NCBI RefSeq assembly: GCF_003265155.1
Contig: NZ_QKVO01000001.1
Location: forward strand, 1-64,000
Origin: Mycoplasma wenyonii
GTDB lineage: Bacteria; Bacillota_I; Bacilli_A; Mycoplasmatales; Mycoplasmoidaceae
Length of the DNA stretch: 64,000 nucleotides
Direction of reading: 5' to 3'
The notes under the pieces are model-generated. The model saw only the letters and a program-made list of their open reading frames with translations. It was not told the DNA's origin and did not search any database. The position numbers and the translations under genes were made by a program. Positions 4,061 through 22,479 of the stretch are shown here, one piece after another; within the stretch, counting starts at the first letter, position 1, and each line of letters starts with the position of its first letter.

Positions 4061-5590
4061 TTACTTTGTTAATAGCAAAGATTCTCCTGTCATTTCTTCA
4101 GGCTGTTTGATAGATAGTAATTCAAGAATAGTTGGAGAAACATCCCCTAACTTCCCTCCATTCTTAAGTACTACATCTTTATCACAAACAATTAACGGTA
4201 CTGGAGATAGAGTGTGAGCAGTGTGTGGTTCATCCTTTTCATCTCTCATTACATCTGCATTACCATGATCTGCCATAACTACTAAGGTATAGCCCTTTTC
4301 TTTAGTTAAGTTGTATATTTTCCCTAATACCTTATCTACAGCAGAACAAGCTTTAACAGTGGCTTCAAAATCACCTGAATGCCCCACCATATCTGGATTA
4401 GCTAAATTAACTACTACTAAGTCAAAGTCTTTAGATTTAACACTTGCTTCAATCTTTTCATATAGCTCAAAGATAGACATCTCGGGGGCTTTATCATAGG
4501 TACCTACTTTTGGCGAAGGAACAATAATTCTTTCTGTCTTCTCAAATTGTTTTTCTACTCCCCCATCAAAGAAGTAAGTAACATGAGGATATTTCTCGCT
4601 CTCTGCGGCTCTTAATTGAGCTTTGCCTAGTTGATTCATCACTTCTCCCATAGTGTTCTTTAATTGAATAGCTGGAAAGAATACTCCGGCAGTCAAAATC
4701 CCTTCATAATCTGTCATAGAATACAAAGATAAATCATCAGGAGTTAAAGGAGTTCTATGGGCATATAAATCAGCAGAATCAACTAATAAGTGAGATATTT
4801 GTTTAGCTCTATCAGGTCTAAAGTTCAAGAAGACTACAACATCTCCATCATTTAATCCTTCAGAAGACATATACTCTTCTGAGGCTGAAGGGTTAATAAA
4901 TTCATCTGTAATTCCTTTTTCATATTCTGAATTCACATATTCTTCTGCAGACTTAAAATGAGGGGTTCCTTTGTCTTTTACAAATACCTTTAAGACCTTC
5001 TCTGTTCTATCCCAGTTTTCATCTCTATCCATTGCATAGTATCTTCCTGAAATAGAGGCTAACATCGCTCCAGCCTCCTTTATCTTTGTTTCTATTTCTG
5101 CTAAATCAGTCAGGAATTGTTTAGGGGGCACATCTCTACCGTCGCTGAATAGATGTACAAAAGGCTTAACTCCATGTTCTTTTGTTACACCTAGAAAAGC
5201 ATACAAGTGATCTATATGGGAGTGAACTCCTCCTCTTGAGGCCAGAATCATAATGTGTAGTTTTGAGTCAGGATCAAACTTTAGGTCTTCAAATACTGCC
5301 TGAACAGCCTCTAGAGAGGCAAATTGTCCTAACTTAATTGCTTGATTTATTCTGTAAAGTCCAGTCTCAACTACCCTACCAGCCCCTATATTTAAGTGAC
5401 CTACTTCAGAGTTTCCCATTTGACCATCAGGCAATCCAACCGCTTCTCCTGAGGCGGTCAATGAAGTCATAGGATATTCCTTTGAAAGAAAGTCATAGTT
5501 CTTTGTGTCTGCATTGGCTATTGCATTTCATTCTTTCTCTTCTCTAAGTCCTCAACCATCTAATATTGTCAGGAATACTCTCTTTGCCAC
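4061..5590 (-). CDS. gpmI: 2,3-bisphosphoglycerate-independent phosphoglycerate mutase
   Basis: GpmI interconverts 3- and 2-phosphoglycerate in glycolysis, using two Mn2+ ions and a phosphoserine intermediate. The full frame of 509 residues, the usual length, begins at GTG 5590 (MAKRVFLTILDGWG, with W = TGA). Visible motifs are the metal Asp in ILDGWG, the phosphorylated Ser in MGNSEVGHLN, HSHIDH, RDVPP, MADHGNAD and HTAHT. The GTG start shares a base with the TAG stop of tpiA (TAGTG), so translation of the two glycolytic genes is probably coupled. Confidence 0.96.
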
Positions 5591-6300
5591 TATCTATTCA
5601 TAGCCATTTCTCACATATTGTCGATATTCAAAGAGGCTGAACCAACTAAGATCCCATCACATACAGGAAGACTTAAAAATGACTTGTAATTTTCTGGAGA
5701 AACTGATCCTCCATACAGTAATGGAACTTTTCTTCCAGCCTCTCCCCACATATCTATAGCTAAACTCCTTATTTCTTCTAGTTGTTTCGCTACTAGTTCA
5801 GGAGGCATTGCGGAACCAGAACCAATTGCACTTAATGGTTCAAAAGCAATAGCCACTCTTTCTAAGTTAGAGGAGTTAATAAAGAATAGCTCATTCTTAA
5901 TCTCTCTTAAAGGATCTTTTCCGCAACAATAGACTACATTGAATCCATTAAGTAAAGCAATTCTTACCTTTTTAGAGACTATATCTTCTGTTTGCCCTAA
6001 AGCTCTGCACTCTGAGTGACCAATTAAGGTTGATCGGACATTAATTGAATTCAATTGAGAGGCAGAAATAGAAGAAGTATAGGCTCCTTTTTCTAAATGG
6101 TGTACATCTTGTGCTAACAACTGTATTTCAGATTGAATTTCTTCAGCTACTTTTTCCAGATAGATATAAGGTACAGCAAAACCTAATTGATGTTCAGGAG
6201 TTTCATCTTGAAATCTCTTCTTTAGTTCTAAAAAGTAAAAGCTAAGTTCGTGTCTCAGGAGATTCATCTTCAGGTTACCAATTATTCTCTTTCTAGTCAT
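5590..6300 (-). CDS. tpiA: Triose-phosphate isomerase
   Basis: TpiA interconverts dihydroxyacetone phosphate and glyceraldehyde 3-phosphate. The protein is 236 residues from ATG 6300 to TAG at 5590-5592; the last codons after TGA-Trp read WEMAMNR. Recognisable sites are GNLKMN (catalytic Asn and Lys; the usual Trp is Leu), LIGHSECR (catalytic His), AFEPLSAIGSG (catalytic Glu) and LYGGSVSPEN (phosphate grip). It is slightly shorter than the common 245-255 residues. It precedes gpmI with a one-base stop/start overlap. Confidence 0.94.
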
Positions 6301-6338
6301 TAGTAACCCAACTAATTTAAAAGTTTATTTCCTTTGCA

Positions 6339-7298
6339 TTACCACTTAGATACATTAAAGCTTCTGTTAAATACTGCCACTATCAATCTCTTTAGAATAA
6401 TGAAGATTGCTAATCCCAATACACACAGTATTACAGTGCTGATAATCTTGTTTCTCTTATTTAGTCTGAATACTTTTTCTCTAATGTCAGGATGCATATT
6501 CATCTCATCAGAGTCAAAGATCTTCAAAGCATTCTTGATGGCGAACCGGCTAAAAACATTTGTAGTAAAGAGAACTAACAGACCAAACAATCCAACTAAC
6601 ACAGAAACTTTAATCGTCTTTCCTCCTGCTGTGTTTTGTCATTTAAAAATGCCGTCTTTAATCCTCTCTCATTCAACTTTTCACACAGAATCGTGGAATC
6701 CCCTTATAAAGTATCCATAAACACCTGCAACTACCCCAAGTCCAGCAATGGTAAAACCTACTCAAAAACCATTAATTCTTCAGGCGAAAAGAGTTAATAT
6801 CTTTTGACTTAATGCAGGAGTCAAAGAGGTAGGATATCTTCCTGACTGACATAAATCACACTCCCAACAAATTCTTTTCTTCTGGGCTGAAAGTCTGAAA
6901 AGATTCTTAATGGAACCCAGCAAGAAAGAGCCAAATCCCACTGAAATAGGAACTTGTGCTCACGGGCCACTACTTTTTACACTTTCTAAAGCCTTTGCGG
7001 AAAAAGTAATTGTAGCTGTCCAACCCCACATATTTCCGCTCTCAACAAAAATAAATCAAAGTGCTGCCATAAAAACAGACTGTGCAATGAACATGGAGAT
7101 AAATATATTTCTCTTAAGTTTCTTGTAATACTTCTTAAGTTCAGGGATATTAATTCCCTTAATAAATAACTGTCCTCCGTTGCTACTATGAGAACTATCT
7201 ACAGCAGTATCTGTTTGTTGAGCAACATCAGAACCACTAACAGGTAAAGCAATTCCTTGTGTCTCTAAGCCTAAAGCTGGAAGGGTTACACTCGGCAT
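6339..7298 (-). CDS. Unrecognised multi-pass membrane protein with CWECDLC motif
   Basis: Two apparent ORFs and the gap between them form one 319-residue frame (ATG 7298 to TAA 6339) once about ten TGA codons are read as Trp. After a Ser/Thr-rich, probably exposed or cytoplasmic N-terminus of about 55 residues there are five or so hydrophobic segments, near 68-90, 110-125, 180-205, 230-250 and 290-310. Between the second and third lies RICWECDLCQSG, a tight cysteine group that could bind metal or form disulfides. The C-terminus is basic. I know of no matching family. Confidence 0.65.
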
Positions 7299-7350
7299 AA
7301 CTAATGAGTTTTTTTAAATTTAAAAGCTAGCCCGAACTATAAAAGAATAG

Positions 7351-8130
7351 TTATCCTCTTGTTATTGTCAAACGCTCAAAAGAGTCAATGTCATTTAGGA
7401 TATTCTTCTTAAACCCATCATATATAAAGTTTTCTGGATTTAACTTCATAGTTAGTCTTAGCTTATTGAATTTCTCTTCTCTTTCAGTAATTCTGCTAAT
7501 TAACTCTTCTACTCTATCAAACTTCGAGTGATAGAGTGAGTCTACTTCTTCTCTACTTGCCTCACTTAAGTTAGATAGAATACGAGCCAAAGAGATTATC
7601 TGATAGTCTAGATGAGCCATATGAATAGCAAAGTTCTTATCTAATAGTCTCTGAGAATCTAATAGTAAAGAAACTGAACTCTTTAACTTAAGTATCTCTT
7701 GTTGGAAACTCATATTCTCACTGTATAGACTTAAGAATTGTCTATATTCCTTAGACTTAGGCAAGTGATCTTGAGTCAAGCTATTAGGGAAAACATTATT
7801 AGTTCTCACTAGATAAAGTAAATGATCCATCTTTCTTTCTCACTTAGAACTATTTAGTTTCAATTCAAATAACTCTTCTAAATGATCTAGTAATTTAGCT
7901 CTTATCTCTGCAGACAATACATCATAGAGAGAAAGAATATTACTCTTTTGTAACTTCAAACTATTCAATAGATTCTCTACACTAGGTATTCCATCTACCT
8001 TAGAAAGAAGTAAGATGGTTCTAGTTATCTTTTCTTCTAAAGATAGATTGTCTGAGTAACAACTCTCTACACTAAAATTAGGGTCTTCTAGTGGATTTAA
8101 GGTAGATAATTTGTTAGTTTCTGATTCCAT
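7351..8130 (-). CDS. Unrecognised 259-residue helical protein
   Basis: A TGA at 7840-7842 splits this frame into two apparent ORFs. Read as Trp it gives one protein of 259 residues, ATG 8130 to TAA 7351. The sequence is hydrophilic and almost wholly helix-forming, rich in Leu, Ser, Glu and Lys, with several heptad stretches (around EELISRITEREEKFNKLRL), so a coiled-coil or bundle protein in the cytoplasm is likely. No catalytic motif or membrane helix is seen. It lies between lepA and the membrane protein above, in the same direction. Confidence 0.6.
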
Positions 8131-8192
8131 AAAATGGCTCTAGAAGGCTATTTAAGAAACTCTAAGGTAAACAAAACTTAATCTTGATTTTA

Positions 8193-10037
8193 CTAATTAT
8201 GACTCGTGATTAGAGTCTTAAAGAAGGAGTGTGGAAGTTTCAGTTTAGATTCTTGTTTTAGTCTCTTTTTTCCCTGAGACTGTTTTTCTCATAATTTCTT
8301 CTTTCTAGTAATATCTCCTCCATAGCATTTGGCCGCTACAGCTTTACCAATAGCCTTAAGAGTCTCTCTAGCAATAATCTTTCCATCTATCTTGGCCTGT
8401 AATGCTAATTCATAAAGTTGCGCAGAAAGACTACTCTTTAGCTTTAGAAGTATATCTCTGGCTTTGGTACTTGCCTCTCCTCTCTCTGTTAAAAAACTTA
8501 ATTCTGGATACTCTAAGTTATTAATACATATAGAGACTTTTACTAGAGCTAAGGGAACATAATCAGCTAGAGAATAACTGTAATCTATATATCCTTTAGT
8601 GATAGCAAACAAAGCATGTATTAAAGAGGAATTCAATTCTGACAATGGAAGGAAATATTGAGTCTCTACTTCCTTTTCAGTTCTATTAATTGAGAGCAAA
8701 CTTGCTGATCTTTTGGTAGAGATAAAGCCCATAAACTCTTTCTCACACTGAGCAGGAAAAGACAAATCTAACTGAATATAAGGTTCTAGATATTGAGAAA
8801 CTGTAGTTCTTTCCGGTAAATCCTGCGCAGAAGAAAATCAAATCTCTCCTCCTTGCTTAAGTTCTGCTTTGTATTCAATAGTGGCTGGTCCACTAACCAA
8901 CTGTAGTCTATAATCTTTCTCTAATCTTGAGACCAAAACCTCTAGATGTAAAGGTCCCAAGGCTCCTATGTTGGCTCCAAAACCTAATGCTGAGGACTTA
9001 ACAAAGTTATAGGAAAAAGAAGTATCTGAGAGTTTCAAAGAAGACAGACTATTAATAAATAACTCTCTCTGAGACTCTTCATAGGGAGCTATAAAGCTAA
9101 ATATCATAGCCTTAAAAGAACTCATGCTACTAGTTTCGGGAAGTAACTCAAGTTGATCTTTGGGTGGTGCAGGATAGTTACAGATATGCTCTCCGGACTC
9201 TAACTGCAAATCCTTAGCGAGAAACAAATAGATTCTTCCCACTTCCCCAGCAGAGATACTCTCTGCTTTCTCTACTTTTGGCACCAAGAACTCAATTCCC
9301 TTAACCCTTGTCTTTACCTTTGCCTTAACTAGATAGATTTCTTCTCCAACAGAAAGCTTTCCTGAGAACACTCTAATAGTCAAGATAGTTCCTCTTTGGT
9401 TACTGTACTCTGCCTCAAATACGAGAGCGCAAAGCTTGTTCTCTTGAATAAAAGGAATATTTAACTTGGAGAGATACTTGTGAGCAGATGGATCTGGAAT
9501 GACCTCCACTAAGTAATCTAAAAGATCTTTAACTCCCTGACCCGTCTTGGCGGAGATGTACTTAAACTCTTCTTCTTTAAAGCCAAAAGGTTCCTTACCT
9601 AGTGTTTCAATTATCTGGGCGGTTTGTGCCTTAGTAACTAAAGGAGAGTCAATCTTATTAAGTACAGGAATAATCTTTAGATTCTCTTTCTTAGCTTTCT
9701 TGAATAGTGAGATAGTTTGGGCTTGAACTCCCTTAGTTAAATCAACTAACAGTACAGCCGATTCAGATACCTTGAGACTTCTAAATACCTCTGCAGAGAA
9801 GTCTATATGTCCAGGAGTGTCTATGAGATTAAGATGGCAATCTTTCCAACTTAATCTGATAGATGCCAGCTTTATAGTTATTCCCTTTTCTTTCTCTAGC
9901 TCCATACTGTCTAAGAAACAATTGGAAATGGAAGAGAGAGGTAGATTTAAACAATGCTCTATTATTCTGTCAGAAAGAGTAGACTTCCCGTGGTCTATAT
10001 GTGCAATAATGCAAAAATTCTTGTTTCTTTTAATAAT
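8193..10037 (-). CDS. lepA: Elongation factor 4 (LepA), non-canonical ATT start
   Basis: LepA is a translational GTPase that back-translocates or rescues stalled ribosomes. Motifs seen: FCIIAHIDHGKSTLSDRIIE (G1), the switch region KEKGITIK, LIDTPGHIDF (G3), PVLNKIDS (G4), SAKTGQG (G5), GFGANIGALGPLHLEV, and the LepA-specific C-terminus AAKCYGGDITRKKKLW. Length is about 614 residues, near the family's 600. The frame is open only from a TAG at 10044-10046; between this and the G1 motif there is no ATG, GTG or TTG, so initiation must be at ATT 10037 or ATT 10034 (or another rare codon). TGA codons at 8289 and 8838 are Trp. Confidence 0.93.
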
Positions 10038-16268: not shown

Positions 16269-16640
16269 CTATTTAGTATTTGGAGGTGTTAAGTTCTTTT
16301 GTACTTGAACATTTGCTCTTTCAATCAAATTGGTCTTAGACTTGGACAATTGATTATGAACTTCTTGTACTTGAGCAATTAAATTAGGTGAAGTTTTTTG
16401 ACAGTGTTCACAACAATGATGTTCACAAGTTGTTTTCAAAGCGGAACTAATTAAGTTAAATTCTTTTTCAACCTCTACCCCTAATTCTCTTCAGTCTTGT
16501 TCATTTAGATTCTTTCAACCTTTTTGCTTAACTTTCAAATAAAACTGACAAATATAAACAGCTAAACCAATTACTGAAGGAATAACAGAACCTAATACAC
16601 TACCTATAGTGGTAGCATCTAAAAATCCAATTCAAGACAT
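16269..16640 (-). CDS. Small membrane protein with Cys/His cluster
   Basis: A 123-residue frame runs from ATG 16640 to TAG 16269, opening with TGA-Trp at codon 3. One membrane helix lies near residues 8-35 (GSVLGSVIPSVIGLAVYIC). A Lys/Glu-rich region follows, and at about residue 80 the compact motif CEHHCCEHC, which could bind a metal such as zinc. The rest is a polar helical tail. It sits between the coiled-coil gene and the GyrA-CTD gene in the same direction. No family is recognised; the topology (C-terminus out or in) is not decided by the sequence. Confidence 0.6.
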
Positions 16641-16658
16641 ATCGCCTAATTTCAAATC

Positions 16659-17666
16659 TTAATAATCAATATATTTAATAACTCCAACTAAACTATCATA
16701 CACTTTTGATTTTTCTTTAAGTACTAACTCTCCTCTAGCATATCTTTTATCTGTCAAAAAGATATCTTTTATGTCAATCTTGTGAAGATAATTCCTGCGA
16801 GTGTAACCAATTAGATAGTCATATTGATTTACACAAGAAGCATAAATAATCCAGCCTGCAGAATTAAAGTTATGACAAATTACTCCCTTTCCTCCTCTTC
16901 GCACTAAAGGAAATTGATTCAACTTAATTCTTTTCCCAAATCCCTTATCTCCAATTATTAACAGATGATCTCCTTCTAAGCTATTTGTAGCAAATGCCAC
17001 TTCATGATTTTTTCCACCTAAATAAGGTGTCTTAAGATTTATTGTCTTAACTCCAACAGCGACTCTTCCCAGTCCTCTTAAGCTGGAAGAACTAAATTTA
17101 ACTGCTCTACCTCCTGTAGAAACCAAAACCAATTCAGTATTTTCATTCACTCTCTTTACTTCCTTTAATTGATCTCCTTTTTGTAAATTAATAATCTTTC
17201 TTCCAAAGTCATTGGCGCCCTTTACATGATCTATTTCTAACTTTTTACCGATTCCATTCTTTGTAACTAAAAACAAACTTGATTTTTTTGAAAGGTTTAG
17301 GTCATATTCAGAAATCACAGTAACTATCTGAATTTCATTAATTTCTTCAGCCTCTCCTTCTGGTTTCTTTTCATTCTTTTTGATAATTTCCTTAAAACTC
17401 AGAAAATCTATAAAGCAATGGTCATCTTTGACAAAAATGTTTAATGGAGTTCCAATTAATTCTTCACTGTTTACGCCATAGACTTTTCCCAAATTAGTAA
17501 AGAAAAATAATTGAGAATTCTTGTGAGTTATAAAGATTTGAAAATTTTTCTTGCTACCTAAATTAACCAGTTTTTTATCTTTTCACTGCTCTTCAATAGT
17601 TTTAAGCGGTATAGAAGCCACATGATTAGATTCATTAATAAATAAAATCAATAGCTCTTTTGTCAT
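16659..17666 (-). CDS. Free-standing GyrA C-terminal beta-pinwheel domain protein
   Basis: This 335-residue protein (ATG 17666) resembles only the DNA-wrapping C-terminal domain of GyrA/ParC; it has no winged helix, tower or catalytic Tyr. Blade repeats are visible: LFFFTNLGKVYGV, LFLVTKNGIGKKLEI, LVLVSTGGRAVKFSSSSLRG, LLIIGDKGFGKRIKLNQF. Around residue 256 it has VRRGGKG, very close to the GyrA box (QRRGGKG) needed for positive wrapping. It lies downstream of gyrA, 211 AT-rich bases away, same strand. It could act as a detached wrapping module for gyrase or topoisomerase IV, or be the remnant of a second GyrA/ParC gene; no such N-terminal part is in the window. Confidence 0.78.
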
Positions 17667-17877
17667 ATTTATTTGATTGAAATTTTAAATTTAATGCAAT
17701 ATTTCGTTAATTTAACAATTATTTAGGTTTGCATTTAATTCTTTTAGAGATTTTCGAATATTTAATAAATATTTCAAAAAACCATAACAAATAACTCTTT
17801 AAGAAAAAACTCAAACAATACTTAATAAAAGTTATTTAAAAGTTCTATCTCCCCATTTCAGAGGAAAATAGACTAAA

Positions 17878-20523
17878 TTATTCCTCTACAGTAACTTCTT
17901 CAGTAGGCTTTTCTAATTTATCTTCTAAGGAGACATATTTTGCGAAATGAATTACTTTATCTTTTTTGTCTTTCGCCAAGTCAATTAACCTAACTCCTTT
18001 TGCATCTCTTCCTTTTAGGACTGATATGTTCTTCGCAATACTAAATCTGTTTAAGTGATTTTGTTTGGTCATTAACGCAATTTCCTCATCCCCTCTAATC
18101 GCGACACAAGCAACTAATTTCTTATCAGTCTTGTATGCGACTCATCCTCTCTGCCCTCTTTTGTGAACCTTAAAAGCACTTAATTCATTAATCTTTCCAT
18201 TTCCCTCTTCACTAATTGCTAACAATTTATCTCCCTCGTAACTGGAAGAAACAGAAACCAAATCACCTACATAAATCTTTTTGCCCTTCTTTGTCTTAAA
18301 GAGACTAATTCCCTTAATTCCTCCGGCCCCTCTACTTCTTTCTTTTAATTCTTTGGCATTAAATCTAAGCATTCTTGCGTCAGGAGAAGTCAATAATATA
18401 TCAGAGTCATCCTTAATCTTGATTACTCCTTTCAGCTCATCTCCTTTAAATAATTTCATTGCTCTTTTTCCTTTTCTAGTAATGGTTTTGAAGTTATTGT
18501 GTATTCTTACATTTCCTTCTTTGGTTAATCTTTGCTCGCTACTCAATCGAGTTTTCTTTACTAAACCTTTTTTGGTAGCAAACAATAGATAAAGATCCTT
18601 TTCATAATCTTCTGGCGTGATAGCAATTAACTGAATTACTTTTTCATCTTCTTGAAACAAAGAATCTTTCTGTCCAAGTAAATTCTTGATAGCAAGAGGC
18701 TTATTTGTTCACTTGTTTGAGTTGCTGACTTTGATATCATAGCCCTTAACCTTATAAACCTTTCCCAAATTAGTAAACAAAAATAAATCGTCATGAGAGG
18801 ATGCGAACAATAAATCTGTCACAAAATCCCTAGATGAATAATTCCCAACATCCGCACCCTTAGTTCCGCGTCCACTCAACTTAATTACTTCTAAAGGCAA
18901 AGCTGAAATAAAGTTTTTGTGAGTAACTCCTATTGCCAATGTTTCTTTTGGAATTAGGTCTAATTGGCTTAATGAATATCCTTTGGTGAAATCAATTTGA
19001 GTCCTTCTTTGGTCATCTATATACTCTTGCATAATTTCCATAAGTTGTCTTTTGATTTCTTGATTTTGTAACTCTTTACTAGCCAATCTTTCCTCGTGAG
19101 CTATTCTGAATCGAGTCTTCTCTTCTAGTTCATCAATTAACTTTTGAAACTCAATTCTTTTAAGTTGTCTAATTGGAAGATCAAATATGTCTTTAACTTG
19201 AACATCTGATAAAGAATACTTTTCTTTAATTAATTTCTCAGGCTCATCTTCTTGAGTAATAATGTCTATAGCTTCTTTGAGATCTGTCACTATTATCCTT
19301 CTTCCTTCCAATAAATGAATTCGAGCTCTTAGTTTTTCAAGATTGAACTGAGTTCTTCTAATTAATACCTCTAATTGATAAGCAAGATATTCCTTTAATA
19401 TTGGGATAATTCCGAGGGTTTTAGGTTCTCTTTGTCCTGTTGTACCTACACTTAATACTGTTAAGTTAGCTGAATAAGGCTGTTGAAGGGAAGTATATTT
19501 ATAAAGGTTGTTAAGTATCGTTTCAAGCGGAGCTTCCTGTCTACATTCAATAACTAATCTAACTCCTTCCTTTAAGTTAGATTCATCTCTAATATGCTTA
19601 ATAAATCTTTGAAATAAAGGAAGAACTGTAAACTCAGGATTTTTTTCATCACTGGCTAATTGAGCGATTTTTTTAATTAATCTATTCTTTTTAACTCCAT
19701 ATGGAATTTCAGTGAAAATAATTTGGTTTTTTTCTCAATCTAGTTCTGCTCTAGCTCTTATTCTGAATGATCCTTTACCAGTTAATAAATATTTCTGAAC
19801 TCCTTTGTAACCTAAAATTAGTCCGCCAGTAGGGAAGTCAGGCCCTTTAATTATCTCCAACATCTGTGATTCATGTAATGAAGGTTCGTCCAACAGTGCT
19901 ATTGCTAATTGACACAACTCTTTTAAGTTATGAGAAGGAATTTTTGAAGCCATTCCAACTGCAATTCCATCTCCCCCATTCAAGAGAATTGAAGGAACAA
20001 CAATAGGTAAGATAACTGGTTCTTCTTTTGAACCATCATAGTTAGGAACAAAATCTACTGAATTTTCCTTAATCCCATCTAAGAATTTTTCTCCAAGTTT
20101 GCTCATTTTCACTTCGGTATAACGCATGGCTGCTGGAGCATCTCCATCAATAGAACCAAAGTTTCCTTGCCCTTCTAATAATGGATATCTCATGCTGAAA
20201 TCTTGAGCTAATCTCACTAACGCGCCATAAATAGAACTGTCTCCGTGGGGGTGATAGGCCCCCATTACAGCACCAACTAGAGTAGCAGACTTTCTAAATC
20301 TAGCATCACTAAACATCTTTTCTTCATAAGCAGCATAAAGAATTCTTCTATGAACTGGCTTAAGTCCGTCTCTTAGATCTGGAAGTGCTCTAGAAGTAAT
20401 AACAGAAAGGGAATAGTCAAGAAAAGATTGTTCAGCCTCTGAAACTAAGTTCTGCTCTTTTACCTGTGAATCTGCTAAAGCCCCTAAGAGCTTTTCTAAA
20501 GTACTAGAAAGTTTTGAGCTCAA
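17878..20523 (-). CDS. gyrA: DNA gyrase subunit A
   Basis: GyrA cuts and rejoins DNA and wraps it during negative supercoiling. The 881-residue frame (TTG 20523 to TAA 17878) is split by TGA-Trp codons. N-terminal motifs are LPDLRDGLKPVHRRILYA, AYHPHGDSSIYGALVRLAQD, LLEGQGNFGSIDGD and the catalytic Tyr135 in AAMRYTEVKM; QGNFGS favours GyrA over ParC. The C-terminal pinwheel runs from about 500; its box reads HKRGQRG (about 788-793), a degenerate GyrA box. It begins on the base after the gyrB stop (TAGTTG), so the two subunits are probably translated in a coupled way. Confidence 0.94.

Positions 20524-22479
<1,956 letters not shown>

Follow-up and report, generated by a model that had tools for sequence, protein, structure and literature searches.

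The gyrase locus of Mycoplasma wenyonii INIFAP02, a blood-borne mycoplasma of cattle, raises the question of what a second GyrA C-terminal domain (CTD), encoded as a protein of its own beside a complete gyrA, might do in the cell. An earlier note on this DNA had described the open reading frame (ORF) as a stand-alone GyrA CTD downstream of gyrA and had proposed either that DNA wrapping was handed over to it or that it was the remaining half of a second topoisomerase subunit. We analyzed the locus in a window of 64,000 nucleotides (the whole stretch examined, positions 1 to 64,000 of contig NZ_QKVO01000001.1) and compared it with related genomes.

The free CTD gene and its surroundings

The INIFAP02 assembly comprises 596,665 bases in 37 contigs at ~7x coverage (PMC6256526), and the draft is 94% complete. 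The window was read with genetic code 4 (TGA as tryptophan), which keeps the gyrB, gyrA, and free-CTD frames open, whereas code 11 breaks them. On the minus strand, gyrB (20524 to 22479), the sole GyrB/ParE gene found in the genome by profile searches, is followed by gyrA (17878 to 20523), whose 881-amino-acid product carries a catalytic domain and its own CTD (Pfam and NCBIfam), and then directly by a 335-amino-acid ORF (16659 to 17666) with an ATG start and one TGA codon. Between gyrA and the free CTD lies a 211-bp spacer (17667 to 17877) with one terminator-like hairpin (17872 to 17844) and two promoter-like sites; in promoter and terminator scans, such sites were not above chance for the region.

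Farther downstream on the same strand lies a small protein (16269 to 16655) with a motif like GSVIPSVIG followed by K.KGW, for which no confident Pfam or NCBIfam match was found. Each of the seven genus members has this protein or an equivalent downstream of gyrA or of the free CTD (outside INIFAP02, at loci L072, L075, L073, L074, L071, and L069).

Domain content and modeled fold

The only Pfam domain of the free protein is DNA_gyraseA_C (PF03989), matched in three stretches (3.9e-25) with a score of 87.5 bits against a curated cutoff of 27, while the catalytic domain PF00521, which marks a DNA gyrase A subunit, is absent. Its best NCBIfam matches were gyrA models, at scores well under their full-length cutoffs, and solved GyrA CTDs also matched it by sequence. 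When 29 CTDs were supplied as input, the AlphaFold model reached a pLDDT of 86.6 and a pTM of 0.87, whereas the six free CTDs alone gave a poor model (pLDDT 55.1). Six blades can be read from the strands of the model, in which a C-terminal strand could close the ring and complete blade 1; the best PDB fold matches of the model were GyrA CTDs, including that of Borrelia (1suu, TMt 0.82). These results bear out the description of the ORF as a stand-alone GyrA CTD, and the structure prediction that the earlier note had suggested as a check returned a pinwheel, one with six blades. The free protein resembles the GyrA CTDs of the Mycoplasmoidaceae in fold, profile score, and blade count, but it lacks the catalytic domain and the blade-1 box and is encoded by a separate gene. 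A modeled helix (residues 21 to 29) runs into the blade-1 stretch where the GyrA box belongs. The protein is basic (pI 9.4), a property that is suggestive of DNA binding.

Topoisomerase complement and distribution of the free CTD

The comparison within the genus covered INIFAP02 (G000), Ca. M. haemolamae (G004), Ca. M. haemominutum (G005), M. suis Illinois (G008), M. wenyonii Massachusetts (G009), and two genomes that we take to be M. ovis (G006) and M. parvum (G007); five of the members are single-contig genomes with an estimated completeness of 93 to 95%. Profile searches of the INIFAP02 genome, including the search for a parC/parE pair proposed earlier, recovered topA, just one PF00521 and one PF00204 protein, and no second type IIA topoisomerase. 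Every genus member likewise has one protein of each kind, and no parC or parE was found in the INIFAP02 draft or its sister species. The three genomes of the haemofelis group (g3), among them M. haemocanis (G011) and M. haemofelis Langford 1 (G012), each encode a single PF00521 protein and no free CTD, and two PF00521 proteins occur in most other genera of the family. Since the haemofelis-group genomes also have a single PF00521 protein, whereas most other genera have two, the loss of topoisomerase IV (topo IV) probably preceded the origin of the free CTD.

The free CTD is present in six of the seven genus members (G000 and G004 to G008). In five of them, its position is downstream of gyrA, with two other ORFs in between in M. 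parvum, and in Ca. M. haemolamae it has been relocated. The exception is M. wenyonii Massachusetts, in whose one-contig genome no second CTD match was found. There, the small gene found behind the free CTD of INIFAP02 and M. ovis lies almost immediately downstream of gyrA. The Massachusetts gyrA product is 77% identical to that of INIFAP02 and carries the blade-1 box RDRGTKG. Given that this strain does without the free CTD, at least one lineage can dispense with the protein. The proposal that wrapping was handed to a separate polypeptide is likewise not supported for M. wenyonii by these comparisons, in that Massachusetts combines a similar gyrA and box with the absence of a free CTD.

Across the phylum, no more than two CTD matches, the number expected for gyrA plus parC, were obtained in nearly all of 195 sampled genomes; at the sensitivity used, additional free CTDs are therefore not common. 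One genome of the 195 (G166) has three CTD matches.

The histone-like protein HU was found in every genus member, as two neighboring genes in six of the seven (in INIFAP02 at G000:C32:27965-28516) and as one copy in Ca. M. haemominutum. We therefore rejected HU replacement as a gap-filling role for the free CTD. Given that HU is present, in two copies in INIFAP02, a nucleoid role would fill no gap.

Position and conservation of the GyrA box

The GyrA box, Q(R/K)RGG(R/K)G, is a loop of blade 1 (PMC3510516). The earlier note had singled out VRRGGKG in the free protein as a better GyrA box than the HKRGQRG of gyrA; both strings exist, but HMMER alignments placed them in blade-5 loops, away from the canonical box. 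The HKRGQRG of gyrA (residues 787 to 793; 18145 to 18165, minus strand) pairs with E. coli KSRATKG. VRRGGKG (residues 255 to 261; 16884 to 16904, minus strand) pairs with QGRGGKG of Mycobacterium tuberculosis GyrA (3uc1), a second, box-like motif. E. coli QRRGGKG instead pairs with SGRGTKG in blade 1 of gyrA (residues 550 to 556; 18856 to 18876, minus strand), which is the actual, degenerate GyrA box of this protein.

We scored both positions out of seven against Q[RK]RGG[RK]G in 29 aligned CTDs. At blade 1, where a functional wrapping CTD carries its box, outgroup GyrAs scored 5 to 6, the haemofelis group 5, and the fused copies of the genus 2 to 4 where scored, the fused boxes of Ca. M. haemominutum and M. 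parvum having been read directly from the alignment. The INIFAP02 gyrA scored 4 of 7 at this position, versus 2 of 7 for the QWKDKKL of the free protein (17568 to 17588, minus strand). The box has been lost from four of the six free copies, and two relatives' free copies keep one. At the true blade-1 position, the comparison drawn in the earlier note is thus inverted in these alignments, with gyrA retaining part of the box that the free protein lacks.

At blade 5, outgroup GyrAs scored 3 to 5 of 7, the INIFAP02 free protein 6, and the other free copies 2 to 4. A blade-5 box of the M. tuberculosis type is therefore found in the INIFAP02 free protein only and is not conserved in the group. As aligned here, VRRGGKG is somewhat better than the ordinary blade-5 loop of the family, in one species and at the wrong position for a GyrA box.

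Origin of the free CTD

We next compared the six free CTDs with profiles built from the GyrA CTDs and the ParC CTDs of the Mycoplasmoidaceae, the test ParCs being left out. All six scored higher with the GyrA-CTD profile (108 to 202 bits) than with the ParC-CTD profile (58 to 91 bits), a lead of 41 to 126 bits; for INIFAP02, the values were 107.6 and 59.1 bits. The left-out ParCs, in comparison, reached 182 to 365 bits with the ParC profile. In the CTD tree, the ParC CTDs formed a separate clade (support 100/100), and a single origin of the free copies was not rejected (p-AU 0.51). One branch of this unrooted tree unites the free and ParC rows, with poor bootstrap support (39/96); since the profile scores favor GyrA, we take it to reflect long-branch pull.

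By these scores, the free protein is a GyrA-CTD paralogue and not a ParC remnant. That it is the remaining half of a lost ParC, the A subunit of topo IV, would accord with the failure to find ParC and ParE in the genome and with the weak branch just described. Besides the profile scores, however, two free copies keep the blade-1 GyrA box that ParC lacks, and the gene adjoins gyrBA. We consider this origin hardly credible, and the earlier suggestion of a second topoisomerase subunit is not supported.

Coding status and constraint

The free CTD is 27% identical to the GyrA CTD of its own genome. The INIFAP02 and M. ovis versions of the free protein share 45% identity, versus 72% for the fused CTD and 85% for the catalytic part. 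Such rapid divergence, together with the loss of the box and the clean absence from Massachusetts, where the next conserved gene comes almost at once after gyrA, would be expected if the gene were a relic, i.e., a duplicated gyrA tail under relaxed selection and on its way out. We regard this as doubtful. The 335 codons have stayed open at a dS of ~1.2 from M. ovis, whereas none did among 300 simulated neutral descendants of the M. ovis gene (mean of 12 to 21 stops gained), and none of 2,000 composition shuffles kept the frame open. Furthermore, dN (0.46) is below dS (1.20, a value near saturation), 25 columns, many of them glycine, are invariant across the six free copies, and five other small genomes have retained the gene. 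Given that neutral copies gain stops and given the dN/dS and identity values, the free CTD is, as judged from its sequence, a protein-coding gene under weak constraint rather than a decayed frame, and one that was lost in one lineage.

Fused and free CTDs across the genus

The two CTDs differ in how much of GyrA each has kept from one species to the next. With the GyrA-CTD profile, the INIFAP02 free protein scored 108 bits and its fused CTD 181 bits, whereas M. parvum (L073:4466-7000) has a strongly diverged fused CTD (117 bits) and a more GyrA-like free copy (202 bits). In Ca. M. haemolamae, the free CTD (L070:4918-5967, minus strand), which lies away from gyrA, has the blade-1 sequence AKRGGKG (6 of 7), versus RNRGTTG (3 of 7) in gyrA; its start codon is uncertain, because the AKRGGKG stretch precedes the first ATG, GTG, or TTG of the frame. 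In Ca. M. haemominutum (L071:4330-9200), the fused propeller stops at about blade 4 in a long coiled-coil-like stretch. The region is spread over four overlapping frames (4330 to 7332, 7304 to 7732, 7702 to 8202, and 8169 to 9200), the last of which ends with the missing blades, and the only unbroken propeller is the free CTD that follows the split gyrA. An inserted segment with frame changes, gene breakage, or a sequencing error could account for this split.

These cases bear on whether the free CTD serves gyrase in trans as an accessory protein, binding DNA beside the heterotetramer and either restoring wrapping or biasing the enzyme toward decatenation through the blade-5 VRRGGKG. Such a role would suit a genome in which no topo IV was found, the eroded blade-1 boxes of the fused copies (compared with those elsewhere), the alignment of VRRGGKG with the M. 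tuberculosis motif, and the better-preserved free copies of Ca. M. haemolamae, Ca. M. haemominutum, and M. parvum. On the other hand, the high-scoring VRRGGKG is peculiar to INIFAP02, the blade-1 box is gone from most free copies, and Massachusetts, whose gyrA is equivalent, does without a free CTD. We also know of no contact that would hold the free CTD to GyrA, which counts against a role in trans; overall, we find it unlikely. A more specific form of this idea, in which suis-group hemoplasmas have a split gyrase whose fused box eroded in favor of decatenation after the loss of topo IV and which relies on the separately encoded CTD to provide or tune wrapping and supercoiling in trans, strikes us as a long shot. 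Its clearest cases would be Ca. M. haemolamae and Ca. M. haemominutum, and these two species may keep the idea of wrapping in trans alive. The varying retention of GyrA features is compatible with a duty shared between the copies and also with plain drift.

Discussion

The explanation that we favor, with about even confidence, is that the free protein is a GyrA-CTD paralogue, born of a tandem duplication, that binds and bends DNA on its own in the manner of Borrelia Gac, makes no chiral wrap, and is accessory to gyrase. As judged from the distribution, synteny, and profile scores of the gene, the 3' end of gyrA was most likely duplicated in tandem, giving rise to it, in the ancestor of the suis-group hemoplasmas, after topo IV was lost. 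With its modeled fold of a six-bladed, basic pinwheel, the protein could carry DNA along its basic rim, and by analogy to Gac it would then be a free DNA-binding and DNA-bending protein. Gyrase that lacks the GyrA box relaxes and decatenates DNA but does not supercoil it (PMC3510516; PMC12903076); judging from these published box mutants, a protein without a blade-1 box would not form the chiral wrap that drives negative supercoiling. The free CTD might thus have an accessory part in nucleoid organization or DNA topology alongside gyrase, apparently the cell's sole type IIA topoisomerase. Against this explanation stand the much faster evolution of the free CTD relative to the fused one, its absence from Massachusetts, and the presence of HU.

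In Borrelia burgdorferi, the GyrA CTD also exists as a free protein, Gac, with DNA-binding and transcription-repressing activity (PMC10127594). Like the INIFAP02 protein, Gac is a basic, six-bladed, CTD-only polypeptide made beside full-length GyrA. Gac is, however, reported to arise from an internal promoter and start within gyrA and hence to match that part of GyrA exactly (PMC10127594, citing Knight and Samuels 1999), whereas the INIFAP02 protein is the product of a separate, diverged gene behind a spacer and lacks the blade-1 box, in a genome where no topo IV genes were found. The authors of the Gac study stated that the occurrence of such a protein elsewhere was not known (PMC10127594), and our search of the literature on stand-alone GyrA CTDs found nothing beyond the Borrelia work.

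M. tuberculosis offers a second comparison, in that gyrase is the only type IIA topoisomerase there as well and VRRGGKG aligns with its second box. This second box reportedly has a role in decatenation. It lies on the same chain as the canonical box and the catalytic core, unlike VRRGGKG, which sits in a free CTD without a canonical box and is not conserved in sister species. The M. tuberculosis motif is named GyrA-box-l (Bouige 2013, as cited in PMC12903076).

A free GyrA CTD was known from Borrelia; here it has its own gene, retained by six of the seven genomes in a genus that relies on gyrase alone for supercoiling, relaxation, and decatenation. Since the fused and free CTDs degenerate differently from species to species, these hemoplasmas form a natural test set for which duties of the wrapping domain must be carried out in cis.
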